Of a stretch of DNA of 64,000 nt, positions 11,019 through 64,000 are shown piece by piece (within the stretch, counting starts at the first letter, position 1; the number at the start of each line of letters is the position of its first letter). The notes under the pieces were generated by a model. It saw only the letters and a list, made by a program, of their open reading frames with translations. It was not told where the DNA came from and ran no database searches. Source of the stretch: Leuctra nigra (taxonomy: Eukaryota > Arthropoda > Insecta > Plecoptera > Leuctridae). The position numbers and the translations under genes are program-made. The stretch spans positions 27,929,060-27,993,059 of the forward strand of contig OW203768.1 in assembly GCA_934045905.1 (NCBI GenBank), in the 5' to 3' direction.

Positions 11019-13030
11019 TTTTTTGAACTTGGATCATCAGAACTCAATACATTATGTATAGTTTCCAGCATTCTATGACCCAACAACTTTCCACCTTGAA
11101 TATTTAGATGAATCCCGTCATATGCTGAATCTTCATTAGTTAGTACATTATTAACATCATCAAAATAAACACCCATGTCATTAGCCAACCATTCAATACC
11201 CTCGTTAAGTTTATCAATTGTGCTCTCAAAACAGTCCCCTCTATACACTAAACCATTCACAATCCATTTTGCTGCTGGAAATGTTTGAAACCCTATCTTA
11301 AGCATTTCCTCCATCTCCACCAACATATGTCGGTCTCTTCTTCCAATATTGTTTGTACCAACATGAATCATTACAAGTTTGGGGTGTATTGAACTTTCAT
11401 CCCTGAGTTTCAATTTATTTCCAATCTCATCAATTCTGATTCCTGGAAATATTTCCACCTCACATCCCGCCTCTCTACAGACTTCACCTGCACGTCTGAT
11501 TATAGAATCGCCCATAATTAAGACATCTCGATATTTCTCATTTTCGCTGCTATGCCCATCTGTACTGCCTTGTCTCCTTAATATACGCGAAAACTTATCT
11601 TTCCTCATATTACTAGCTTCCTCATCACACGATGTGCTCTTGCCCCCCTGGATGTACTTCAACTGATTATGATAACCTTGTTGAAATTGTTGATGGCTCT
11701 GCTCTTGTTGCCGATATTGTTGATAACTTTGACCTGACCGTAACTGTTGAGGATGGCTCTGCCCTTAATGCAACTCTTCAGGTTGGCTCTGACCTTGCTG
11801 CAACTCTTGAGGCTGGCTCTGACCTTGCTGCAACTGTTGAGGCTGGCTCTGTCCTTGCTGCAACTCTTGAGGCTGGCTCTGTCCTTGCTGCAACTGTTGA
11901 GGATGGATCTGCCCTTGCTGCAACTGTTGAGGATGGCTCTGCCCCTGCTGCAACTGTTGATTATGGCTCTGCCCTTGCTGCAACTGTTGAGGACGGATCT
12001 GCCCTTGCTGCAACTGTTGATTATGGATCTGACCTAGCTGCAACTGTTGATAATGGCTCTGCCCAAGCTGCAACTGTTCAGAATGGATCTGCCCTTGCTT
12101 CAACTGTTGATTATGGATCTGACCTTGCTGCAACTGTTGAGGACGGATTTGCCCTTGCTGCAACTGATGATTATGGCTCTGCCCTTGCTGCAACTGTTGA
12201 GGACGGATCTGCCCTTGCTGCAACTGATGATTATGGCTCTGCCCTTGCTGCAACTGTTGAGGACGGATCTGCCCTTGCTGCAACTGATGATTATTGCTCT
12301 GCCCTTGCTGCAACTGTTGAGGATGGCTCTGCACTTTCTGCATCTGTTGAGGATGGATCTGCTCTTGCTGCAACTGTTGAGGATGGATCTGCCCTTGCTT
12401 CAACTGTTGTTCTTTAATAAATCCCACCAACATTTCTCTCACCTCCTTTATTTCTTGAAGTAATAGTTCATTATTTTTTTCATGTATTTTTTCTTGCTTC
12501 ATAATGCATTTGTAGTCAATGCATCTATTTTGCTTTACAATGGATTCACAACTTGGACAACACCAATTTATTTGTGAATTTTCTTCTACGACTTGATAGG
12601 TCTTTTTCGATATGCTAGCACAAGCCAAATGCTACCATGTTGCACAGTACAAGGCACACTTAATAACATCATCGGTACGTATAACATCAATGTTACATGC
12701 TGCGCTACCACATTTACCTATACGCTCATCAAATGTTACAGAACTATTATCTTCAGTTACTGTGTTTTGTGCATCATGCTCTTTTGTATCAAACAAGAAT
12801 GTGGCTGGGTCTTCATTATTTGCCTTCATTGAATCTTGTAGCTTCTCAAGAAGTGCAGATTTATTTACGTTTATGTTAGCAGTTACTCCTCTATTTATCA
12901 ACTCCTTCCGCAACTGATAAAGCTTTAAATCATCAATGCATTTCAAATGACTAAACTCTTGTGAATTTCTTCGCCCAATAGACCTTGACTTAGACGAACT
13001 AGTCATCTTTTTCTTATTTTGATTCGACAT
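11012..13030 (-). pseudogene. CR1-like ORF1: SAP, PHD, Q-rich repeats and SGNH esterase
   Basis: One continuous frame from ATG 13,030 to TAG 11,012 is interrupted only by two nonsense codons: TAG at 12,632-12,634 and TAA at 11,765-11,767. In order: a basic N-terminus; a SAP-like DNA-binding helix pair (residues 34-65, LKLYQLRKELINRG); a PHD-type zinc finger starting at C107 and continuing past the TAG as HLAC and WCCPSC; about 24 ten-residue Q-rich repeats (QQLQQGQSHP type); and an SGNH/GDSL esterase with MGDS, HVGTNN and DGIHLN blocks. The TAG sits where a PHD finger usually has an aromatic residue, so it is probably a point mutation. PHD-plus-esterase ORF1 proteins are known in CR1-like elements; their role in the cycle is unclear. 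Confidence 0.82.
11690..12415 (-). repeat. 30-bp coding minisatellite in the retroelement ORF1
   Basis: About 24 units of 30 bp encode alternating QQLQQGQSHP, QQLQQGQIRP and QLQQGQSHNH type decapeptides on the minus strand. Because 30 is a multiple of three, other frames and the plus strand are also open and give spurious long reading frames. Confidence 0.9.
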
Positions 13031-27314: not shown

Positions 27315-28125
27315 CAAAGGAGATTAGCTAATGATATAATGATTTGGGTGATGCGAGGGTGATCAGCTAATGAATGGATTATTTGGGTGATGCTGGGGTG
27401 ATTAGCTGATAATATGACGATTTGGATGATGCAGGGGTGATTAGCTGATGATATGATGATTTGGATGATACAGGGGTGATTATCTCATGATATGACGATT
27501 TGGATGATGCAGGGGTGATTAGCTGATGATACGATGATTTGGGTGTTGCTGGGTTGATTAGCTGATGATATGACGATTTGGATGATTGCTGGGGTGATTA
27601 GCTGATGATATGACGATTTGGATTATGCTGGGGTGATTAGCTGATGATATGATGATTTGGATGATGCAGGGGTGATTAGCTCATGATATGACGATTTGGA
27701 TGATGCAGGGGTGATTAGCTGATGATACGATGATTTGGGTGATGCTGGGTTGATTAGCTGATGATATGACGATTTGGATGATTGCTGGGGTGATTAGCTG
27801 ATGATATGACGATTTGGATTATGCTGGGGTGATTAGCTGATGATATGATGATTTGGATGATGCAGGGGTGATTAGCTCATGATATGACGATTTGGATGAT
27901 GCAGGGGTGATTAGCTGATGATATGATGATTTGGGTGATGCGAGGGTGATTAGCAAATGAATGGATGATTTGGGTGATGCTGGGTTGATTAGCTGATGAT
28001 ATGACGATTTGGATGATGCAGGGGTGATTAGCTGATGATATGACGATTTGGATGATGCAGGGGTGATTAGCTGATGATATGATGATTTGGGTGATGCGAG
28101 GGTGATTAGCTGATGGTTGAAGATC
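27315..28125. repeat. 39-bp minisatellite
   Basis: About 20 units of 39 bp, of the form GATGATATGACGATTTGGAT followed by GATGCAGGGGTGATTAGCT. A block of five units with shared private changes (a GATTGCTGGGG variant near 27,582 and 27,778) repeats with a period near 196 bp, so there is a higher-order layer. Reading frames through it are artefacts of the period being a multiple of three. Confidence 0.92.
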
Positions 28126-29176: not shown

Positions 29177-29342
29177 TTATATCAGAGTGTCTTCCGTCGG
29201 AATGAATCTGCTTAGTCCTGGCAACACTTTCAGAAGATCGATGAACGTGTCGAGAGCATAGCTGGCAGTCTCAGAGCGGGAGATGAAGTATACGAGACCA
29301 CCGTAGAAGATCGCTGTACAGATCTTGTCCACGGCCCACAAG
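29177..29342 (-). CDS. Fatty acyl-CoA reductase, last exon
   Basis: The acceptor TTGTTGCAG at 29,343 is followed by 166 bases ending in TAA (29,179-29,177). It completes the codon AT|C from the previous exon and encodes 54 residues, including LWAVDKICTAIFYGGLVYFI, a hydrophobic C-terminal segment, and SYALDTFIDLLKVLPGLSRF. This is the end of the FAR C-terminal (sterile-like) domain. Arthropod FARs often end in a membrane-anchoring segment like this. The enzymes reduce fatty acyl-CoA to fatty alcohol with NADPH at the ER or peroxisome, for waxes, hydrocarbons or pheromones; the substrate here cannot be read from the sequence. Confidence 0.93.
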
Positions 29343-29865
29343 CTGCAACAATATCACAGTCAATATAATGCCACATAGCAGGAGAGTTGGAGTGGATGAC
29401 GCTCAAGAAACAAAAATAATTAAAAGTCGAAGATCACTGTACAGATTTTGTCCATCGGCCCACAAGCCAAGATTCATAGATCATAGCTTAGTTCACACTA
29501 GTAAGACACGGTTTGCTCACTTGACCAATGAAAGTGAAGCCTTTCCAGGAACCCAGCAATTTTCGTCACGCGGATGGACTAGCGCTTATATCAGCTACTG
29601 GTGGTAAAAATATGAACTTACACTGCATATGCATGTACACTGCAAGTAGTTCACTATGGAGATAATAGATGGAGCTGCGCCATCTGAGAAACGAATTTAG
29701 TAGAAAATCAGGTCTGTTTAGGCTTCACTTCAGCCAATGTTAATGGAATAGGAGTAAACTAATTTTGCCTTACTAGTATGAATGTAGAAATGACGTCCAT
29801 GAATCTTGCACAAGCTGCAACAATATCACAGTCAATATAATGCCACATAGCAGGAGAGTTGGAGT
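29336..29865. repeat. Duplicated exon-intron junction inside the last FAR intron
   Basis: About 57 bp spanning the acceptor of the last exon (CACAAGCTGCAACAATATCA and onward to GGAGAGTTGGAGT) occurs at 29,336-29,392 and again at 29,808-29,865. A diverged copy of the start of the exon itself lies at 29,424-29,467 (CACTGTACAGATTTTGTCCA), with an extra base that breaks the frame. The last intron thus contains partial, dead copies of the final exon's 5' end. Confidence 0.8.
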
Positions 29866-29930
29866 AGAAGGATGATGATGATGACTTTTGATCGGTCAAA
29901 CAGTCTCGTGTATCTTTGCTTAATACTCAC

Positions 29931-30188
29931 ATCTTCATATTCCTTCTGCACCTCGGCAGTGAAGACAAATCCTCCTTGAGAAAATACTGTCTCGCTCCAA
30001 GCAGACACTTCTTACAGTATTCCTCGTCACTGGTTGTTTTGAAATCTATCTTGAAGTTCTCCTGGTCTTCTGCGCTCCTCATCTTGCGCAACTCCAAGAA
30101 TTTCTCGCTGCGGAACCGCCACTGGCGCGTAGTGAAGTATTGCAGCACGTTCATACCCTCCTGGATACGCCACTGGAGGCGCACCATA
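29931..30188 (-). CDS. Fatty acyl-CoA reductase, exon 5 of 6 visible
   Basis: Acceptor GCGCAG, 258 bases, donor GTGAGT. It joins TT|T from the previous exon and leaves AT| for the next. It encodes the middle of the FAR C-terminal domain: MVRLQWRIQEGMNVLQYF, WRFRSEKFLELR and DFKTTSDEEYCKKCLLGARQ, ending KEDLSSLPRCRRNMK. The tract reading LQYFTTRQWRFRSEK matches the family's usual F-x-x-x-x-W-x-F pattern. No break is seen. Confidence 0.95.
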
Positions 30189-30299: not shown

Positions 30300-31100
30300 T
30301 TGTAAAAAGTCGCCAAGCAGATTGTCACCTAAAAGGATTGAGAACCTTAGAGAAGAGCCAAGCAAATTTTGATCAAACTCTTTCTCACCTAAACTCCGTG
30401 AAATCATTTTGCCCAGTTACTGCCGCCAAGCACAATTTTATAGGGTCAATTAAACCTTTTTTCACTTAAAATCTCTGTAATCATTTCGCCCATTTACTGC
30501 CGCCAAGCACAACCTTAATATAAGGCCAAGCAAATTTTATGAAACACTTTCTTACTTAAAGTGCGTGAAATCATTTAACACAGTAGCTGACGCCAAGCAC
30601 AACATTATGAAATTGACGCTGTGCCCAAATTGTACATGAAAATTAATTTAAAACAACGTTAAAAATTATAATTTAAAATCAACCCTAAAAATAATAAAAA
30701 TAATGCTTGGCGCATTGGGTCAAGTGGAGAGCAAATTTAATGCGCCAATCTTTATTTTTATTTTTTTAGAGTTGATTTTAAATTATTATTTTTTAATGTT
30801 GTTTTTAAATTAATTTTCATATTCAATTTGGGCACAACGTCAATTTTATAATGTTGTGCTTGGCGCCAGTTACTGTGCGAAATGATTTCACGCAATTTAA
30901 GTGAGAAAGTGTTTCATCAAAATTTGCTTGGCCCTATATTAAGGTTGTGCTTTGCGGCAGTAAATGGGCGAAATGATTTCAGAGATTTTAAGTGATAAAA
31001 GGTTTAATCAATAATTGCTTGACTCGATAAGATTGTGCTTGGCGGCAGTAACTGGGCAAAATGATTTCACGGATTTTAGGAAAAGAGTTTTTCACTTTTC
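30300..31100. mobile_element. Large foldback element in the FAR intron
   Basis: Two inverted arms (about 30,310-30,712 and 30,748-31,095) surround a short centre near 30,730. Each arm has three tandem units with TTACTGCCGCCAAGCACAA and GTGAAATCATTT, followed by GACGTTGTGCCCAAAT-like and TTTTAAAATCAACCC-like sequence and GCTTGGCGCA at the centre. It is non-coding and is a candidate source of a long RNA hairpin in the FAR pre-mRNA. Confidence 0.8.
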
Positions 31101-35060: not shown

Positions 35061-35300
35061 AATCTCCTACGCCCGGAGATGAGCATCAGTAAGTCGATGA
35101 AGTATGCGGGCAGGAAGTGCAGGAAGATGACGCACAAGTTGTGCATCAGCTTGCTCGTGCGCGGGTGGCCGTCGGGATACCAGATCGTCTTCTCGAACGG
35201 GAAGTCGTCGATCATCTGGCGTCCCATTTCAAGGATCCGATCCCAAGTAACATCCCTGACGGCGGAGGCGGTGAGGTTGTAGACGGGAACCTCAGCAGGT
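35061..35300 (-). CDS. Fatty acyl-CoA reductase, exon 4 of 6 visible
   Basis: Acceptor GTCTGCAG, 240 bases, donor GTAAGT. It completes AG|A and leaves TT|. Translation: PAEVPVYNLTASAVRDVTW (end of the Rossmann part, the usual x-VYN-x-T/S element), then WDRILEMGRQMIDDFPFEK and TIWYPDGHPRTSKLMHNLCV, then the hydrophobic run IFLHFLPAYFIDLLMLISG. The W-YP-x(5-7) tract followed by a hydrophobic HxLPAYxxD segment is a standard FAR signature. Codon use is GC-rich compared with the surrounding AT-rich intron. Confidence 0.96.
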
Positions 35301-38371: not shown

Positions 38372-39947
38372 TCTAGTAGAGCGGTCGCTCCAACCCAGCC
38401 AAGTCGTACAGTACACTCACACCCACTCAAAATACCGTTACTGCCTAATAAACTAAGGAGCAGACCAAACACTTTTACTGTAAGCAACAACATAGCATTT
38501 TCGGCCTACTGGATCTTAAAATCTTAAAATATCACATTGTTGCAAAAAATCTTAATTTCGAGCTATGGACCACCCCACCCCATATACCAAATTAGGTAAC
38601 AACAGATTATGCCATTTGCGAGCTAGAAGGCCGTGAAAACAGTGAACTTTTAAAAGGTATCTGATTATAATTCAGATACAGATATCAGGAAACACTGTTG
38701 ACAGGGCCACAGCCTAAACGGCTAAACCTATCGATCTGAAATTTGTACCACATGTGCACTTTTGGCGTCTGATGATACCTTGCTGTTACAAATTTTTGTG
38801 CCGCCATTTTGAAACCGGAAGTGACGTCATATCTAAAAAACGGATGGACCTATCGGGACGAAACTAGCGTCAAACGATTCGAACGGGCATCTATATAAAA
38901 TATCAATAGTCTAAATAGAAATGTACTATTACCGAAACCGGAAATGATGTCATAAAAATGAAAAATCAGACTAAAATCATCTTTTATAACTATATATTCA
39001 GAAGGCTTTTTATGTTGCATAACATTTATAAATACATATTTTAAGTGGCACTGACGCCAGCCGCCATTTTTAAAACCGAAAGTGATGTGCACTTTGTCCA
39101 CATGTGCACTTTTGGCGTCTGATGATACCTTGCCCTTACAAATTTTTTGTGCCGCCATTTTGAAACCGGAAGTGACGTCATATCTAAAAAACGGATGGAC
39201 CTATCGGGACGAAACTAGCGTCAAACGATTCGAACGGGCATCTATATAAAATATCAATAGTCTAAATAGAAATGTACTATTACCGAAACCGGAAATGATG
39301 TCATAAAAATGAAAAATCAGACTAAAATCATCTTTTATAACTATATATTCAGAAGGCTTTTTATGTTGCATAACATTTATAAATACATATTTTAAGTGGC
39401 ACTGACGCCAGCCGCCATTTTTAAAACCGAAAGTGATGCCATAACTCAAGAACGGCTGGACCGATTGGAACCAAAATTTCGCTATACTTCATAGCATATT
39501 ATTTATAGCATTTATATAGCAACAAGCACAACTTTTCTGAGCAACCAAATCACAAAGGCGTATTTTTTAAAGGAATAATAATCTTTGGTGCCACAATATA
39601 ATGTTACAAGCTGTAAGAATACACTGAATAAAGAGTGATATCCCCATAAAAAACACTCCGTTTAAAAATACCAGCTAAGTCTCTTCAACTAAAAAATAAA
39701 ATAAAAAAATTAATCTAAAAATTCAGCACTGAAAAACTCAAGCACTGAAGCACAGCACTGGCCAAGTCAAAACTTTTCAAAAAATAATTGGCGCATCGTT
39801 TTTTTAGGACATGTATAGATGAGAAAAGTTTTGACTTGTCTATTTTTTGATATCACTACTTTTCAGAGCTGAATTTTTAGATTTCTTCTGTTTTTTTTAG
39901 AGTAAGAGACTTGGCTGGTTTTCTTACACGGAGTGTTTTTAATGGGG
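38372..39947 (-). mobile_element. Composite Helentron/DINE-1-like element with duplicated D module
   Basis: Inverse orientation: CTAG and hairpin at about 38,372, module C to 38,660, module D (part of it doubled in tandem) to 39,640, and module B 39,642-39,947. It sits head-to-tail with two relatives, so 36,530-39,947 is a cluster of three. Confidence 0.6.
38750..39450. repeat. 351-bp tandem duplication in module D
   Basis: GACGTCATATCTAAAAAACG starts at 38,823 and again at 39,174, and the units are nearly identical across their length. This is a recent duplication inside one mobile element. Confidence 0.9.
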
Positions 39948-41145: not shown

Positions 41146-41344
41146 CTGGTCTCCATCGTCCCTATCTTCCAGCCGATTGAGATGAGCGCACTGATGGCGT
41201 GGTCCACAGGGATCAACTCGGCTCGATATTGCGCGTTGCAGTGCATAGATCGGATCACACCTTTAGCGGCCCCAACCAGCAGGCCCACGGGCCCGTTCAG
41301 GTTGTCGACCCAGCCGGGCAGAGGCTCCTCGTTAGCAGGTACCA
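41146..41344 (-). CDS. Fatty acyl-CoA reductase, exon 3 of 6 visible
   Basis: Acceptor ACTTCAG, 199 bases, donor GTAAGATC. It completes G|TG and leaves AG|. It encodes VVPANEEPLPGWVDNLNGP, then VGLLVGAAKGVIRSMHCN, then AELIPVDHAISALISIGWK. P-x-PGW-x-DN-x-NGP and the G-KG-x-x-R tract are typical of the substrate side of FAR Rossmann domains. The VDxxxNALI-like element appears here as VDHAISALI. Confidence 0.96.
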
Positions 41345-44744: not shown

Positions 44745-47700
44745 TCATCGCACCCCAAGCCTACGCAAATCCTCCTCCACGTCGTCCAGCCACCTCTTGC
44801 GTGGTCGTCCCGGGAGTCTTCTTCCTTCCGGTTTCTGCCTGTAGGCCTTTTGGGCTCCCCTTTCCTCAGGCATACGCTCCATGTGGCCGGCCCAACGTAG
44901 TCTTCCCTTCCTCACCTCTGTCGAGATGGATGGATCTTCGTATATGTCATAAATCTCATCGTTTTTACGAATCCTCCATTCGCCATCGTCCTGTACAGGT
45001 CCGTAGATTCGGCGGAGGATCTTGCGCTCCCAGGTGTTAAGAGCGTCCTCATCCCTCTTCGTCAGCACCCAGGTCTCGCTTCCATATGTAACAACAGGCC
45101 GGATAACTACTCGGTAGATCGTTTTCTTAGTCTTCCTGGAGAGTAAATTTGACTTTAGAAGGTGTTGCATGCTGAAGTAGCATCTGTTCCCAGCGCTAAT
45201 CCTGGCCATGATCTCCAAGTGAGTCTCATTAGTCTTCGTGACGAGGGAGCCGAGGTATTTGAAGTTGTCCACTCTTTCAAACTGATGCTGATTCACAGAC
45301 AATGACTCTCGTTGGTTTCTGTAGTTCCGCTCCATGACCATGTACTTGGTTTTGCTCTCATTGACAACCAGTCCTGCGCGCTCCGACGCCTCCTCCAGCT
45401 GGACGAAGCTCTCCTTCAACGCCCTTTCATTTCTGCTCAAGAAGTCAACATCATCAGCATATGCCAGGTAATGGACTGTCCGGTTCAGTAGTGTCCCGCC
45501 TCCATTGATGTCGATGTTCCGGATAACTCTCTCCAACGTCAAGTTGAACAGCAGACACGACAGCGAATCCCCCTGCCGCAAACCTCTGCTCACTTGGAAC
45601 TCTCGTGATATGTTGTTCTGCACCTTTACCTTGCATGTTGAGTTCGCCAGAGTCATACGTACTAGCTGAGCCAGCTTCTTCGGTACTCCCAGAACGTCCA
45701 GAGTCTCATACAAATAATCGCGATTCACACTGTCGTACGCTTGTTTGTAATCGATGAACAGCTGGTGCACGGTGATATTGTGCTCATAACATTTTTCTAG
45801 AATAGTGCGAATGGTGAAAATCTGGTCCGTTGTGGATCTGTTGTGACGGAACCCGCATTGGTAGTCTCCCAGCACTTGTTCGGCATATGGCTCAATACGT
45901 CTTGCAATTATCTTCGTTAGGATCTTGTATCCAGTGTTGAGCAGTGAAATGCCACGGTAGTTGGCACACTCCAACTTTGATCCCTTCTTGTGTACGGGAC
46001 ATATCAGGGCTACTCTCCACTCGCTTGGCATCTTCTCCTCTTGCCAAATCCTCATGATGATGCCATGTAGTTTATGCTTCAATTCCTCTCCGCCGTACTT
46101 CAGTAGTTCTGCCGTGATCATGTCCTCGCCTGGTGCCTTGTGATTCTTCATTCTGCGAATGGCTTCCTCCGTCTCGCCTAGTGAGGGGTCGGCAACGTCT
46201 GGGCCCGCTTCGACTAGCTCTTGAACATTTTCTGCCTGATCCCCGCTCCCACCGGCGCCGTTCAGCAGTTCCTCAAAATGTTCTGCCCACCGCTCCACAA
46301 CCCTCTTCCCTTCCGCAATCAGGTTTCCCTCCTTGTCGTTGCACATGCTCGTCCGCGCCTGGAACCCATTCTTCTCATCCCTTATTTTGGAGTACATTTT
46401 TCTAGTTTCCTTCCGTCTGGCCAACTCCTCAATTTCCTCTACTTTCTGCTTCTCCCACTTCCTCTTCTCTCTTCTACAAGCTTTCTTAGCCACTGCTCGC
46501 AGTCTTGAGAACTCACTGCAGTTGGTTCTTGTTCCTCTTTGTAGCATTTTCTTCCTGGCCTCATTTCTATTCGCTATGGCCTCCTTGCACTCTGCATTGA
46601 ACCAAGGGTCTCTTCTATCCACTGGCTGAAATCCCACTACTTGCTCTGCTGTGGCTGTCACTGCAGCTTTAAGCATTTTCCAGTCGTTTTCTATGTCTGT
46701 TGCTCCCTGCATTTTGGCCTTTTCTAGCACAAGCTGCGCCTTCAGATGGCATGCAAACTCCTCTTGCACCCTCTTCCCACACTCTCCGTCTCGCACTAGC
46801 TTCTGTCCATCGAACCTCTGGCGTCTGACACCTCTCTCCATCCTTGCCATCGATATCCGCTGACGGCACCTCGCTCGGACTAAGAAGTGATCTGAGTCCA
46901 CATCTGCGCCTCGGTAGCTCCGCACATCCAGGATATCGGAGCCGTGCCTGGTGTCGATGAGTACATGGTCGATCTGGTTCTGGGTATTTCCATCTGGGGA
47001 GCGCCACGTGGATTTGTGCACGTTCTTGTGGGGAAATTTCGTACTGCTGACCGTCATACCCTTACTTATCGCAAACTCCACCAACCGCATCCCGTTGTTA
47101 TTGGAATCACTATGTAGACTCTCTGCCCCTATGGTTGGTCTGAAGATTGTCTCCCTCCCGACCTTGGCGTTCATGTCCCCAAGAATGATCTTGATATCGT
47201 GTCGAGGTGCACCATCATACGCCCTCTCTAGCTCTTCATAGAAATTCTCCTTCGCTTCGTCGTCAGAATCTTCTGTGGGAGCATGCGCATTGATGAATGT
47301 AGTGTTGAAGAAATGTCCTTTCAGCCTCATTGTGCAAAGCCTCTCATTTATTGCCTTGAAGCCAATTACTGCGCTTTCATACTGCTTAGCTACGGCGAAT
47401 CCTGTACCAAGTGTGTTTCTGTTGTGGCCACTGTAGAATATTGTATACAGTTTCTGGCGGAACATGTCCGTCCCTTTCCATCTCATCTCCTGAAGTGCTG
47501 CGATTCTCACCTTGTATCTGTCCAGCTCTACCACCAGGCTTGCAAGAGCCCCCGCTCTGTACAGGCTTAAAACGTTCCACGTTCCTATCCAAAAATCATG
47601 CCCATTTTCTCGCTTGAGTCGTTCCCTTTGATCAGTCCGGCTTCTTTTTCGTAGTGATTGTTTCGTAACCGACCTTTTTTTCCGAAGTGGAGTGGTTAGC

Positions 47701-47774
47701 CCCGCGTCCAACCTGATAGGGGGTTGCCCCTTGCAGCTCCCAGGTAGCTGCCCATTTCTGTTAGGGTGGGACCC
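44745..47774 (-). CDS. RTE endonuclease-reverse transcriptase
   Basis: The frame is open from just after a TAA at 47,775-47,777 to 44,745. Counting from a TTG at 47,711, it has 988 residues. Endonuclease: GTWNV (N46), LQEMRW (E75), GDMNAKVG (D179), QIDHVLI and SDH (273-275). Reverse transcriptase: KAPGED near 525, CPVHKKGS near 571, NYRGISLL near 584, FRHNRSTTDQ near 621, FIDYKQAYDSV near 652, GLRQGDSLS near 710 and YADD at 751-754. A C-terminal WAGHMERM and GRRLPGRPRKRW tail follows. All catalytic residues are present. The first in-frame ATG is codon 76, inside the endonuclease, so initiation must be non-AUG or depend on the leader. Confidence 0.93.
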   Translation of the reverse strand, partial: GSHPNRNGQLPGSCKGQPPIRLDAGLTTPLRKKRSVTKQSLRKRSRTDQRERLKRENGHDFWIGTWNVLSLYRAGALASLVVELDRYKVRIAALQEMRWKGTDMFRQKLYTIFYSGHNRNTLGTGFAVAKQYESAVIGFKAINERLCTMRLKGHFFNTTFINAHAPTEDSDDEAKENFYEELERAYDGAPRHDIKIILGDMNAKVGRETIFRPTIGAESLHSDSNNNGMRLVEFAISKGMTVSSTKFPHKNVHKSTWRSPDGNTQNQIDHVLIDTRHGSDILDVRSYRGADVDSDHFLVRARCRQRISMARMERGVRRQRFDGQKLVRDGECGKRVQEEFACHLKAQLVLEKAKMQGATDIENDWKMLKAAVTATAEQVVGFQPVDRRDPWFNAECKEAIANRNEARKKMLQRGTRTNCSEFSRLRAVAKKACRREKRKWEKQKVEEIEELARRKETRKMYSKIRDEKNGFQARTSMCNDKEGNLIAEGKRVVERWAEHFEELLNGAGGSGDQAENVQELVEAGPDVADPSLGETEEAIRRMKNHKAPGEDMITAELLKYGGEELKHKLHGIIMRIWQEEKMPSEWRVALICPVHKKGSKLECANYRGISLLNTGYKILTKIIARRIEPYAEQVLGDYQCGFRHNRSTTDQIFTIRTILEKCYEHNITVHQLFIDYKQAYDSVNRDYLYETLDVLGVPKKLAQLVRMTLANSTCKVKVQNNISREFQVSRGLRQGDSLSCLLFNLTLERVIRNIDINGGGTLLNRTVHYLAYADDVDFLSRNERALKESFVQLEEASERAGLVVNESKTKYMVMERNYRNQRESLSVNQHQFERVDNFKYLGSLVTKTNETHLEIMARISAGNRCYFSMQHLLKSNLLSRKTKKTIYRVVIRPVVTYGSETWVLTKRDEDALNTWERKILRRIYGPVQDDGEWRIRKNDEIYDIYEDPSISTEVRKGRLRWAGHMERMPEERGAQKAYRQKPEGRRLPGRPRKRWLDDVEEDLRRLGVR

Positions 47775-53404: not shown

Positions 53405-53514
53405 CAATGGCAGGACGTGCTATCGCCACGGGCATGTTCTGGAACTCGTCAATGATCAACTTCTCTGCCAGCCGCTTGGTATATGTGTAGCAGTTCGGGT
53501 GCGGAGCTAACATC
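53405..53514 (-). CDS. Fatty acyl-CoA reductase, exon 2 of 6 visible (YxxxK active site)
   Basis: Acceptor TTGTCAG, 110 bases, donor GTGAGC. It completes AA|G and leaves G|. It encodes MLAPHPNCYTYTKRLAEKL then IIDEFQNMPVAIARPAI. YTYTKRLAE is the extended-SDR catalytic tyrosine-lysine pair, and the ARPAI run continues in the next exon as VVPANEEP, the usual R-PS/A-I-V-x-P tract. This fixes both the family and the splicing across the 12-kb intron. Confidence 0.96.
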
Positions 53515-56924: not shown

Positions 56925-57020
56925 ATATGGACCATGGTCAGTAACAGAATTACAAAAAATAAAATACTAGCAGAAATGCGTGCAAAAAAAACATCGCTCA
57001 CTTAATTACTGAGATCTTAC

Positions 57021-57172
57021 TTGGCTGTGATCTGCTGAAGTGACTCGTCGTCCATCCACTCGACCAAGCGCATGACATCGTGAGGGTTGTGGTCAGTGGG
57101 GAAGTCGTAGGCCTTCTCCTGCAGCTCCTCTTGATCCACATGACAGAATGCAGTGGACACATGCACGAACAC
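57021..57172 (-). CDS. Fatty acyl-CoA reductase, exon 1 of 6 visible (STA motif)
   Basis: The acceptor ATCAACAG is followed by 152 bases and the donor GTAAGATC. The reading is VFVHVSTAFCHVDQEELQEK, then AYDFPTDHNPHDVMRLVEWM and DDESLQQITAK. VHVSTA-x-C is the FAR version of the SDR serine/threonine active-site tract, and LVEWMDD is the usual continuation. The first 84 bases are also the body of the 102-bp tandem repeat that extends to the right, so this is the innermost member of that array and the only one attached to the rest of the exon and a donor. Residues before this exon (about 130-150 in relatives, including the NADP-binding glycines) are outside the window. Confidence 0.93.
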
Positions 57173-60100
57173 CTGTTGATATTACACATCATGGTCAGTG
57201 GGGAAGTCGTAGCCCTTCTCCTGCAGCTCCTCTTGATCCACATGACAGAATGCAGTGGACACATGCACGAACACCTGTTGATATTACACATCATGGTCAG
57301 TGGGGAAGTCGTAGCCCTTCTCCTGCAGCTCCTCTTGATCCACATGACAGAATGCAGTGGACACATGCACGAACACCTGTTGATATTACACATCATGGTC
57401 AGTGGGGAAGTCGTAGCCCTTCTCCTGCAGCTCCTCTTGATCCACATGACAGAATGCAGTGGACACATGCACGAACACCTGTTGATATTACACATCATGG
57501 TCAGTGGGGAAGTCGTAGCCCTTCTCCTGCAGCTCCTCTTGATCCACATGACAGAATGCAGTGGACACATGCACGAACACCTGTTGATATTACACATCAT
57601 GGTCAGTGGGGAAGTCGTAGCCCTTCTCCTGCAGCTCCTCTTGATCCACATGACAGAATGCAGTGGACACATGCACGAACACCTGTTGATATTACACATC
57701 ATGGTCAGTGGGGAAGTCGTAGCCCTTCTCCTGCAGCTCCTCTTGATCCACATGACAGAATGCAGTGGACACATGCACGAACACCTGTTGATATTACACA
57801 TCATGGTCAGTGGGGAAGTCGTAGCCCTTCTCCTGCAGCTCCTCTTGATCCACATGACAGAATGCAGTGGACACATGCACGAACACCTGTTGATATTACA
57901 CATCATGGTCAGTGGGGAAGTCGTAGCCCTTCTCCTGCAGCTCCTCTTGATCCACATGACAGAATGCAGTGGACACATGCACGAACACCTGTTGATATTA
58001 CACATCATGGTCAGTGGGGAAGTCGTAGGCCTTCTCCTGCAGCTCCTCTTGATCCACATGACAGAATGCAGTGGACACATGCACGAACACCTGTTGATAT
58101 TACACATCATGGTCAGTGGGGAAGTCGTAGCCCTTCTCCTGCAGCTCCTCTTGATCCACATGACAGAATGCAGTGGACACATGCACGAACACCTGTTGAT
58201 ATTACACATCATGGTCAGTGGGGAAGTCGTAGCCCTTCTCCTGCAGCTCCTCTTGATCCACATGACAGAATGCAGTGGACACATGCACGAACACCTGTTG
58301 ATATTACACATCATGGTCAGTGGGGAAGTCGTAGCCCTTCTCCTGCAGCTTCTCTTGATCCACATGACAGAATGCAGTGGACACATGCACGAACACCTGT
58401 TGATATTACACATCATGGTCAGTGGGGAAGTCGTAGCCCTTCTCCTGCAGCTCCTCTTGATCCACATGACAGAATGCAGTGGACACATGCACGAACACCT
58501 GTTGATATTACACATCATGGTCAGTGGGGAAGTCGTAGCCCTTCTCCTGCAGCTTCTCTTGATCCACATGACAGAATGCAGTGGACACATGCACGAACAC
58601 CTGTTGATATTACACATCATGGTCAGTGGGGAAGTCGTAGCCCTTCTCCTGCAGCTCCTCTTGATCCACATGACAGAATGCAGTGGACACATGCACGAAC
58701 ACCTGTTGATATTACACATCATGGTCAGTGGGGAAGTCGTAGCCCTTCTCCTGCAGCTTCTCTTGATCCACATGACAGAATGCAGTGGACACATGCACGA
58801 ACACCTGTTGATATTACACATCATGGTCAGTGGGGAAGTCGTAGCCCTTCTCCTGCAGCTCCTCTTGATCCACATGACAGAATGCAGTGGACACATGCAC
58901 GAACACCTGTTGATATTACACATCATGGTCAGTGGGGAAGTCGTAGCCCTTCTCCTGCAGCTCCTCTTGATCCACATGACAGAATGCAGTGGACACATGC
59001 ACGAACACCTGTTGATATTACACATCATGGTCAGTGGGGAAGTCGTAGCCCTTCTCCTGCAGCTCCTCTTGATCCACATGACAGAATGCAGTGGACACAT
59101 GCACGAACACCTGTTGATATTACACATCATGGTCAGTGGGGTAGTCGTAGCCCTTCTCCTGCAGCTCCTCTTGATCCACATGACAGAATGCAGTGGACAC
59201 ATGCACGAACACCTGTTGATATTACACATCATGGTCAGTGGGGAAGTCGTAGCCCTTCTCCTGCAGCTCCTCTTGATCCACATGACAGAATGCAGTGGAC
59301 ACATGCACGAACACCTGTTGATATTACACATCATGGTCAGTGGGGAAGTCGTAGCCCTTCTCCTGCAGCTCCTCTTGATCCACATGACAGAATGCAGTGG
59401 ACACATGCACGAACACCTGTTGATATTACACATCATGGTCAGTGGGGAAGTCGTAGCCCTTCTCCTGCAGCTCCTCTTGATCCACATGACAGAATGCAGT
59501 GGACACATGCACGAACACCTGTTGATATTACACATCATGGTCAGTGGGGAAGTCGTAGCCCTTCTCCTGCAGCTCCTCTTGATCCACATGACAGAATGCA
59601 GTGGACACATGCACGAACACCTGTTGATATTACACATCATGGTCAGTGGGGAAGTCGTAGCCCTTCTCCTGCAGCTCCTCTTGATCCACATGACAGAATG
59701 CAGTGGACACATGCACGAACACCTGTTGATATTACACATCATGGTCAGTGGGGAAGTCGTAGCCCTTCTCCTGCAGCTCCTCTTGATCCACATGACAGAA
59801 TGCAGTGGACACATGCACGAACACCTGTTGATATTACACATCATGGTCAGTGGGGAAGTCGTAGCCCTTCTCCTGCAGCTCCTCTTGATCCACATGACAG
59901 AATGCAGTGGACACATGCACGAACACCTGTTGATATTACACATCATGGTCAGTGGGGAAGTCGTAGCCCTTCTCCTGCAGCTCCTCTTGATCCACATGAC
60001 AGAATGCAGTGGACACATGCACGAACACCTGTTGATATTACACATCATGGTCAGTGGGGAAGTCGTAGCCCTTCTCCTGCAGCTCCTCTTGATCCACATG

Positions 60101-63100
60101 ACAGAATGCAGTGGACACAAGCACGAACACCTGTTGATATTACACATCATGGTCAGTGGGGAAGTCGTAGCCCTTCTCCTGCAGCTCCTCTTGATCCACA
60201 TGACAGAATGCAGTGGACACATGCACGAACACCTGTTGATATTACACATCATGGTCAGTGGGGAAGTCGTAGCCCTTCTCCTGCAGCTCCTCTTGATCCA
60301 CATGACAGAATGCAGTGGACACATGCACGAACACCTGTTGATATTACACATCATGGTCAGTGGGGAAGTCGTAGCCCTTCTCCTGCAGCTCCTCTTGATC
60401 CACATGACAGAATGCAGTGGACACATGCACGAACACCTGTTGATATTACACATCATGGTCAGTGGGGAAGTCGTAGCCCTTCTCCTGCAGCTCCTCTTGA
60501 TCCACATGACAGAATGCAGTGGACACATGCACGAACACCTGTTGATATTACACATCATGGTCAGTGGGGAAGTCGTAGCCCTTCTCCTGCAGCTCCTCTT
60601 GATCCACATGACAGAATGCAGTGGACACATGCACGAACACCTGTTGATATTACACATCATGGTCAGTGGGGAAGTCGTAGCCCTTCTCCTGCAGCTCCTC
60701 TTGATCCACATGACAGAATGCAGTGGACACATGCACGAACACCTGTTGATATTACACATCATGGTCAGTGGGGAAGTCGTAGCCCTTCTCCTGCAGCTCC
60801 TCTTGATCCACATGACAGAATGCAGTGGACACATGCACGAACACCTGTTGATATTACACATCATGGTCAGTGGGGAAGTCGTAGCCCTTCTCCTGCAGCT
60901 CCTCTTGATCCACATGACAGAATGCAGTGGACACAAGCACGAACACCTGTTGATATTACACATCATGGTCAGTGGGGAAGTCGTAGCCCTTCTCCTGCAG
61001 CTCCTCTTGATCCACATGACAGAATGCAGTGGACACATGCACGAACACCTGTTGATATTACACATCATGGTCAGTGGGGAAGTCGTAGGCCTTCTCCTGC
61101 AGCTCCTCTTGATCCACATGACAGAATGCAGTGGACACATGCACGAACACCTGTTGATATTACACATCATGGTCAGTGGGGAAGTCGTAGCCCTTCTCCT
61201 GCAGCTCCTCTTGATCCACATGACAGAATGCAGTGGACACATGCACGAACACCTGTTGATATTACACATCATGGTCAGTGGGGAAGTCGTAGCCCTTCTC
61301 CTGCAGCTCCTCTTGATCCACATGACAGAATGCAGTGGACACATGCACGAACACCTGTTGATATTACACATCATGGTCAGTGGGGAAGTCGTAGCCCTTC
61401 TCCTGCAGCTCCTCTTGATCCACATGACAGAATGCAGTGGACACAAGCACGAACACCTGTTGATATTACACATCATGGTCAGTGGGGAAGTCGTAGCCCT
61501 TCTCCTGCAGCTCCTCTTGATCCACATGACAGAATGCAGTGGACACAAGCACGAACACCTGTTGATATTACACATCATGGTCAGTGGGGAAGTCGTAGCC
61601 CTTCTCCTGCAGCTCCTCTTGATCCACATGACAGAATGCAGTGGACACATGCACGAACACCTGTTGATATTACACATCATGGTCAGTGGGGAAGTCGTAG
61701 CCCTTCTCCTGCAGCTCCTCTTGATCCACATGACAGAATGCAGTGGACACATGCACGAACACCTGTTGATATTACACATCATGGTCAGTGGGGAAGTCGT
61801 AGCCCTTCTCCTGCAGCTCCTCTTGATCCACATGACAGAATGCAGTGGACACATGCACGAACACCTGTTGATATTACACATCATGGTCAGTGGGGAAGTC
61901 GTAGCCCTTCTCCTGCAGCTCCTCTTGATCCACATGACAGAATGCAGTGGACACATGCACGAACACCTGTTGATATTACACATCATGGTCAGTGGGGAAG
62001 TCGTATCCCTTCTCCTGCAGCTCCTCTTGATCCACATGACAGAATGCAGTGGACACATGCACGAACACCTGTTGATATTACACATCATGGTCAGTGGGGA
62101 AGTCGTAGCCCTTCTCCTGCAGCTCCTCTTGATCCACATGACAGAATGCAGTGGACACATGCACGAACACCTGTTGATATTACACATCATGGTCAGTGGG
62201 GAAGTCGTATCCCTTCTCCTGCAGCTCCTCTTGATCCACATGACAGAATGCAGTGGACACATGCACGAACACCTGTTGATATTACACATCATGGTCAGTG
62301 GGGAAGTCGTAGGCCTTCTCCTGCAGCTCCTCTTGATCCACATGACAGAATGCAGTGGACACAAGCACGAACACCTGTTGATATTACACATCATGGTCAG
62401 TGGGGAAGTCGTAGGCCTTCTCCTGCAGCTCCTCTTGATCCACATGACAGAATGCAGTGGACACAAGCACGAACACCTGTTGATATTACACATCGTGGTC
62501 AGTGGGGAAGTCGTAGCCCTTCTCCTGCAGCTCCTCTTGATCCACATGACAGAATGCAGTGGACACATGCACGAACACCTGTTGATATTACACATCGTGG
62601 TCAGTGGGGAAGTCGTAGCCCTTCTCCTGCAGCTCCTCTTGATCCACATGACAGAATGCAGTGGACACATGCACGAACACCTGTTGATATTACACATCAT
62701 GGTCAGTGGGGAAGTCGTAGCCCTTCTCCTGCAGCTCCTCTTGATCCACATGACAGAATGCAGTGGACACATGCACGAACACCTGTTGATATAACACATC
62801 ATGGTCAGTGGGGAAGTCGTAGCCCTTCTCCTGCAGCTCCTCTTGATCCACATGACAGAATGCAGTGGACACATGCACGAACACCTGTTGATATTACACA
62901 TCATGGTCAGTGGGGAAGTCGTATCCCTTCTCCTGCAGCTCCTCTTGATCCACATGACAGAATGCAGTGGACACATGCACGAACACCTGTTGATATTACA
63001 CATCATGGTCAGTGGGGAAGTCGTAGGCCTTCTCCTGCAGCTCCTCTTGATCCACATGACAGAATGCAGTGGACACAAGCACGAACACCTGTTGATATTA

Positions 63101-64000
63101 CACATCATGGTCAGTGGGGAAGTCGTAGCCCTTCTCCTGCAGCTCCTCTTGATCCACATGACAGAATGCAGTGGACACATGCACGAACACCTGTTGATAT
63201 TACACATCATGGTCAGTGGGGAAGTCGTAGCCCTTCTCCTGCAGCTCCTCTTGATCCACATGACAGAATGCAGTGGACACAAGCACGAACACCTGTTGAT
63301 ATTACACATCATGGTCAGTGGGGAAGTCGTAGCCCTTCTCCTGCAGCTCCTCTTGATCCACATGACAGAATGCAGTGGACACATGCACGAACACCTGTTG
63401 ATATTACACATCGTGGTCAGTGGGGAAGTCGTAGCCCTTCTCCTGCAGCTCCTCTTGATCCACATGACAGAATGCAGTGGACACATGCACGAACACCTGT
63501 TGATATTACACATCATGGTCAGTGGGGAAGTCGTAGGCCTTCTCCTGCAGCTCCTCTTGATCCACATGACAGAATGCAGTGGACACAAGCACGAACACCT
63601 GTTGATATTACACATCATGGTCAGTGGGGAAGTCGTAGCCCTTCTCCTGCAGCTCCTCTTGATCCACATGACAGAATGCAGTGGACACAAGCACGAACAC
63701 CTGTTGATATTACACATCATGGTCAGTGGGGAAGTCGTAGGCCTTCTCCTGCAGCTCCTCTTGATCCACATGACAGAATGCAGTGGACACATGCACGAAC
63801 ACCTGTTGATATTACACATCATGGTCAGTGGGGAAGTCGTAGCCCTTCTCCTGCAGCTCCTCTTGATCCACATGACAGAATGCAGTGGACACATGCACGA
63901 ACACCTGTTGATATTACACATCATGGTCAGTGGGGAAGTCGTAGCCCTTCTCCTGCAGCTCCTCTTGATCCACATGACAGAATGCAGTGGACACATGCAC
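57089..64000 (-). repeat. 102-bp tandem array of FAR exon start plus splice acceptor
   Basis: About 67 complete units, running past the window edge. Each minus-strand unit is an 18-bp intron tail, GATGTGTAATATCAACAG, followed by 84 bp coding for VFVHVSTAFCHVDQEELQEK and onward to PTDH. Units differ at few sites: GGC/GCC/GGA (Gly or Ala) after GAGAAG, CAT/CTT (His or Leu) in VHVS, CAT/CAC in the last His, and rare CTTC for CTCC. The period is a multiple of three, so two other frames stay open and mimic giant proteins of 2,332 and 1,904 residues; neither is real. In the true FAR frame each unit runs into TAA two codons after PTDH. Copy number could be misjudged by the assembly. Confidence 0.95.

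Follow-up and report, generated by a model that had tools for sequence, protein, structure and literature searches.

One of the amphioxus repeats now called mirages, the Adh minisatellite, was reportedly the subject of a paper in Nucl Acids Res in 2002. Mirages are tandem repeats lying across an intron–exon boundary, and the accounts of them place examples in the globin genes BflGb6 and BflGb9, in Adh and in TnC, with similar repeats in PGBD5 (PMC3087553, PMC3902484). RT-PCR of amphioxus Adh3 and globin transcripts, as described in one of these accounts, pointed to normal splicing in spite of the mirages (PMC3087553). In chicken, what has been termed exon stuttering is described from the dot chromosomes, where 236 introns of 115 genes contain 1–44 copies (median 4) in the form of imperfect repeats, and its authors associate it with GC-rich coding sequence (PMC12954441). 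Length polymorphism is reported for known cases of mirages or stuttering. Two further systems are described more distantly along these lines: minisatellites at exon–intron boundaries in human segmental-duplication genes, with units averaging 30 bp, repeated four times, that form novel introns (PMC2812944), and the gain of introns in Drosophila via tandem duplications within coding exons (PMC2891723).

Here we draw attention to an array in a fatty acyl-CoA reductase (FAR) gene of the stonefly Leuctra nigra, which we judge to be an arthropod member of the mirage/exon-stuttering kind, with a copy number above the figures given for BflGb6 and for chicken. It was found in a stretch of 64,000 nucleotides, the whole of which is referred to below as the window. 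The gene runs on the minus strand; its N-terminal exons lie beyond base 64000, outside the window, and the part seen comprises six exons, A to F, the first placed by exon joining and homology and the others by in-frame exon joins:

57021..57172, minus strand: authentic FAR exon A, 152 nt, with acceptor CAACAG/GTGTTC and donor CAA/GTAAGA
53405..53514, minus strand: FAR exon B, 110 nt, encoding YTYTK
41146..41344, minus strand: FAR exon C, 199 nt
35061..35300, minus strand: FAR exon D, 240 nt
29931..30188, minus strand: FAR exon E, 258 nt
29177..29342, minus strand: last FAR exon F, 166 nt including the TAA

Joined in frame, the six give 374 codons and then TAA. The protein encoded by exons A–E matches insect FARs, many of them annotated as CG5065-like, the best match among the 120 listed of 551 being to Periplaneta (61% identity across the full length of the query). 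It carries the two domains by which we recognize the family, NAD_binding_4 (PF07993, positions 132–257 of 258) and Sterile (PF03015, 1–93 of 93), together with 86 of the 89 residues that are invariant in 13 aligned homologues; exon A, searched against Pfam by itself, gave no match. YTYTK in exon B is what we take to be the catalytic YxxxK motif of this class of enzyme. To judge from its reading frame and its residues, the FAR gene is real and is intact downstream of the array.

Several other repeats and insertions lie in and around the gene. A retroelement ORF of 1009 codons occupies 44748–47774, within the intron between exons B and C; among the 120 listed of its 616 matches the closest is at 83%, with Nilaparvata lugens at 52%. 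The intron between exons C and D contains a 351-bp direct repeat (two copies at 98%, 38742–39438), roughly 90-bp repeats, some of them inverted relative to others, lie just upstream of exon E (30343–31090), and a 39-bp minisatellite with a higher period of 196 bp follows the FAR stop codon (27322–28115). Farther away, at 11742–12409, 22 copies of a 30-bp repeat lie in long open frames that adjoin a reverse-transcriptase-like frame, an element identified by eye.

The array overlaps exon A and extends into what should be the intron before it:

57090..64000, minus strand: tandem array with a 102-bp unit, from repeat detection and unit alignment
57173..57191, minus strand: last 19 nt of the intron at the authentic acceptor, within unit 1, containing an in-frame TAA

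Tandem Repeats Finder reported 57090–64000 with a period of 102, 67.8 copies, 99% matches and 0% indels. The 67 full units and a further 77 nt run right up to the end of the window, which makes this copy number a minimum; the unit length and the 67 or more copies proposed in the first-pass annotation stand. Unit 1 (57090–57191) holds the authentic exon start, and beyond it lie 66 full further copies and part of another. Read on the minus strand, the consensus unit consists of 19 nt of intron end, TGATGTGTAATATCAACAG, which includes the AG, followed by 83 nt of exon A that begin GTGTTCGTGCATGTGTCC and code for VFVHVSTAFC; the S-T-A-F-C tract is invariant in all 14 aligned proteins. That annotation had divided the unit into 18 nt of intron and 84 nt of exon, a division that fits only the three of the 67 units with a variant at column 102 and has to be given up for the consensus. 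Its main claim, that an intron–exon junction with the STA tract has been amplified within a FAR gene, is upheld by homology, by the in-frame joining of six exons and by the invariance of the tract. Its placing of the array exactly at the site of the intron, with all the acceptors carried by the primary transcript, is more conjectural, the upstream FAR exon lying outside the window. The sequence CACGATGT, found in exon A immediately beyond the unit (57076–57089), recurs at the junction of the three column-102 variant units. This match is possibly a trace, through microhomology, of how the first duplication arose.

The repeat unit thus spans the intron–exon boundary together with its splice site, as in amphioxus mirages (PMC3902484), and the copies adjoin an intact source exon, itself joined in frame to exon B, so that their origin appears local. 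As in the stuttering described for chicken, an exon edge and the splice site beside it have been duplicated into the flanking intron (PMC12954441). The differences are partly of scale: the BflGb6 mirages are described as having 6 and 3 units of 150–160 bp in two haplotypes, and chicken stuttering as having 1–44 imperfect copies, whereas the FAR array has at least 67 near-identical copies of 102 bp. They are also differences of setting, since the mirages belong to a lancelet host and come with splicing and haplotype data, whereas the FAR array belongs to an arthropod and is known from the sequence of one haplotype. The GC-rich surroundings of chicken stuttering are likewise lacking here (37.2% GC outside the array, 49.2–60.3% in the FAR exons); if the copy number is real, a GC-rich setting like that of birds would not be a requirement. 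Length polymorphism of the FAR array is plausible by analogy with the known cases. The human boundary repeats resemble it as minisatellite expansions at an exon–intron boundary, although no new intron has been demonstrated for the FAR array (PMC2812944), and the Drosophila case shares the tandem duplication, in an arthropod, of sequence bearing splice signals, whereas here it is an existing acceptor that is multiplied (PMC2891723). The array had first been called unusual, and in view of these accounts the word has to be narrowed: arrays of the same kind have been published from amphioxus and chicken, and what our literature searches did not turn up, among the papers that they listed, is a host among the arthropods or an array of more than 44 copies, which does not prove that such an array is unpublished.

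A second duplication of the same type, new relative to the first-pass annotation, is present in the last intron of the same gene (29426–29868), where the acceptor and start of exon F have been copied. The unit is about 124 bp, in two copies, one of which has been split:

29809..29868, minus strand: 60-nt duplicate of the intron end before exon F, including the AG and 6 nt from the start of the exon (98.3% identity)
29468..29808, minus strand: 341-bp insert splitting the copy, with similar inverted ends CAAGATTCATGG and CAAGATTCATAG and a 7-bp flanking repeat, GCTTGTG
29426..29467, minus strand: rest of the second copy, exon F start (90.5% over 42 nt)

With the insert and its flanking repeat removed, the period of the duplication is 124 bp; no further copy of the insert was found within the window. 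A search with six acceptors and five donors, each taken with 60 nt of sequence to either side, found junction copies for the acceptors of exons A and F alone, so that two of the six acceptors in the visible gene are duplicated; the other match was a single 25-nt inverted one near the exon B donor, which falls short of the junction. Lying 472 nt before the real one, the copied acceptor has kept its AG, and exon F is still open to its stop.

What the copies might do to splicing can be considered from the signals that they carry. In every unit the AG is preceded, at a distance of 23 nt, by a branch-like CTGAC that comes from the exon copy before it, and no other AG intervenes. Of the six acceptors, that of the array is the poorest in pyrimidines (7 of 17 positions, against 9–12), and donor-like sites in the units score 6/9 by a crude count that gives the five real donors 6–8 and the exon B donor 6/9. 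A simple branch pattern found no match within 45 nt of exons B and C; because of this, and because the donor-like sites of the units rival real donors, such scores are weak guides. Of the 66 upstream acceptors, 65 lead the FAR frame into a TAA short of the next unit, the sole stop-free case being the acceptor after unit 57, through a change in the intron part of unit 56, and the truncated product would end before exon B and its YTYTK. The exon would be 152 nt long from the authentic acceptor, 254 nt from that of the next unit and 102 nt longer with each further unit.

On balance we think it probable, if well short of certain, that this is a junction-spanning minisatellite of the mirage/exon-stuttering kind in an intact arthropod FAR gene, and that it is largely tolerated through exon definition. 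A local tandem duplication across the 3′ splice site would have come first, followed by growth through slippage or unequal exchange and then by homogenization that passed over the functional exon at the array's edge. The spliceosome would mostly pick the acceptor nearest the real donor, since only that acceptor defines a short exon, and the array would then be removed with the intron, passively and largely without harm; transcripts spliced to an upstream acceptor would instead be truncated and probably prone to nonsense-mediated decay. According to PMC9225289, which cites classical results in favour of the upstream of two competing acceptors, intron definition gives upstream acceptors an advantage, and the preference is reduced in exon definition, a reversal not being shown. 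By its coordinates exon A lies between an intron of 3,506 nt and one of at least 6,828 nt, which is the long-intron setting in which that work finds the preference reduced (PMC9225289).

The array itself looks like the product of such homogenization: 43 of its 67 units equal the consensus, and at the exon edge, the one edge that the window shows, unit 1 retains at column 22 a minority base present in eight of the 67 units, as expected if the edge copy is left out of concerted evolution. In 59 of the 67 units there is a Gly at a codon where the authentic exon has Ala and where none of 13 homologues has Gly, and ten units, all upstream of the real exon, have Leu in place of a His that is invariant in those homologues; by their sequence, the array copies are drifting away from that of the protein. 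No clear higher-order period was found (mean mismatches per unit 0.61–0.83 at lags 1–29), and Rfam at its gathering thresholds gave 0 matches in 57000–58200. Expansion driven by secondary structure was considered and rejected, the fold of two units being less stable than those of 200 out of 200 shuffles (z +2.50 as RNA, +2.68 as DNA). Tolerance is also favoured by the coexistence, in the last intron, of an intact decoy AG with an open exon F. Against it stand the rule of upstream preference, the pyrimidine-poor array acceptor and the donor-like sites in the units, and the intact downstream exons may perhaps mean just that the array is recent.

If the upstream acceptors are used to an appreciable extent, the near-identical copies could divert a share of transcripts, dependent on copy number, into stop-containing messages and so lower or tune FAR output, the decoy-bank function suggested in the first-pass annotation. 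The AG and branch-like site of each unit, the stops that follow 65 of 66 upstream acceptors and the preference for upstream acceptors stated in PMC9225289 would all suit this idea, which we nevertheless consider unlikely, since the amphioxus RT-PCR suggested no interference of mirages with splicing (PMC3087553). Nor are the intact acceptors a sign of selection: the near-identity of the copies follows from homogenization of the array, and intact acceptors in homogenized copies say nothing about selection. A harsher version, in which upstream acceptors win, leaving most of the message cut short ahead of exon B and the gene copy itself weak or non-functional, we regard as quite unlikely; the intron-centric proximity rule (PMC9225289) and the in-frame stops would lead to it, but the five downstream exons are intact with 86 of 89 invariant residues kept, and the gene has already tolerated another, more diverged decoy acceptor, though both observations would be compatible with recent loss.

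It is very unlikely, in our estimation, that a few genomic units have been multiplied by the assembler or polisher, as might be thought from the 43 of 67 units that match the consensus exactly. Against the consensus, the 67 units show 29 substitutions and no indels, and the substitutions are of only seven types, where 29 random errors would be expected to give 27.7 (minimum 21 in 20,000 draws). Recurrence of so few types without indels fits inherited variants rather than random error. With unit 1 excluded, variant units are also unevenly spread (17 of 33 in the exon-distal half against six of 33 in the exon-proximal half, permutation p 0.0045). The variants therefore look inherited and spread by exchange, and the second duplication shows the process at work in the FAR gene, although the lengthening of a small real array would still be compatible with that. 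A coding role for the array, in sense or antisense, such as its open frames of 2,308 (plus strand) and 2,333 (minus strand) codons might suggest, is scarcely credible and we reject it, because a unit whose length is a multiple of 3 keeps any frame open throughout once it is open across 34 codons, and at least three of six frames, as in the array, were open in 244 of 3,000 mononucleotide shuffles of the unit.

The presence of two junction duplications in one FAR gene makes a genome-wide count in this lineage worthwhile. It is conceivable, but quite improbable, that the lineage habitually forms acceptor-spanning arrays and that the array of 67 or more units acts as a length-polymorphic splice rheostat, with allele length setting FAR output; were that true, more units would bring more stop-containing FAR messages from a gene for a lipid enzyme. 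If the copy number is real, junction-spanning arrays would extend to arthropods and to a stretch of genome that is not GC-rich, and this one would be a natural test of splice-site choice, with at least 67 near-identical acceptors before one real exon, in which exon definition would favour the last acceptor and the intron-centric proximity rule the first.
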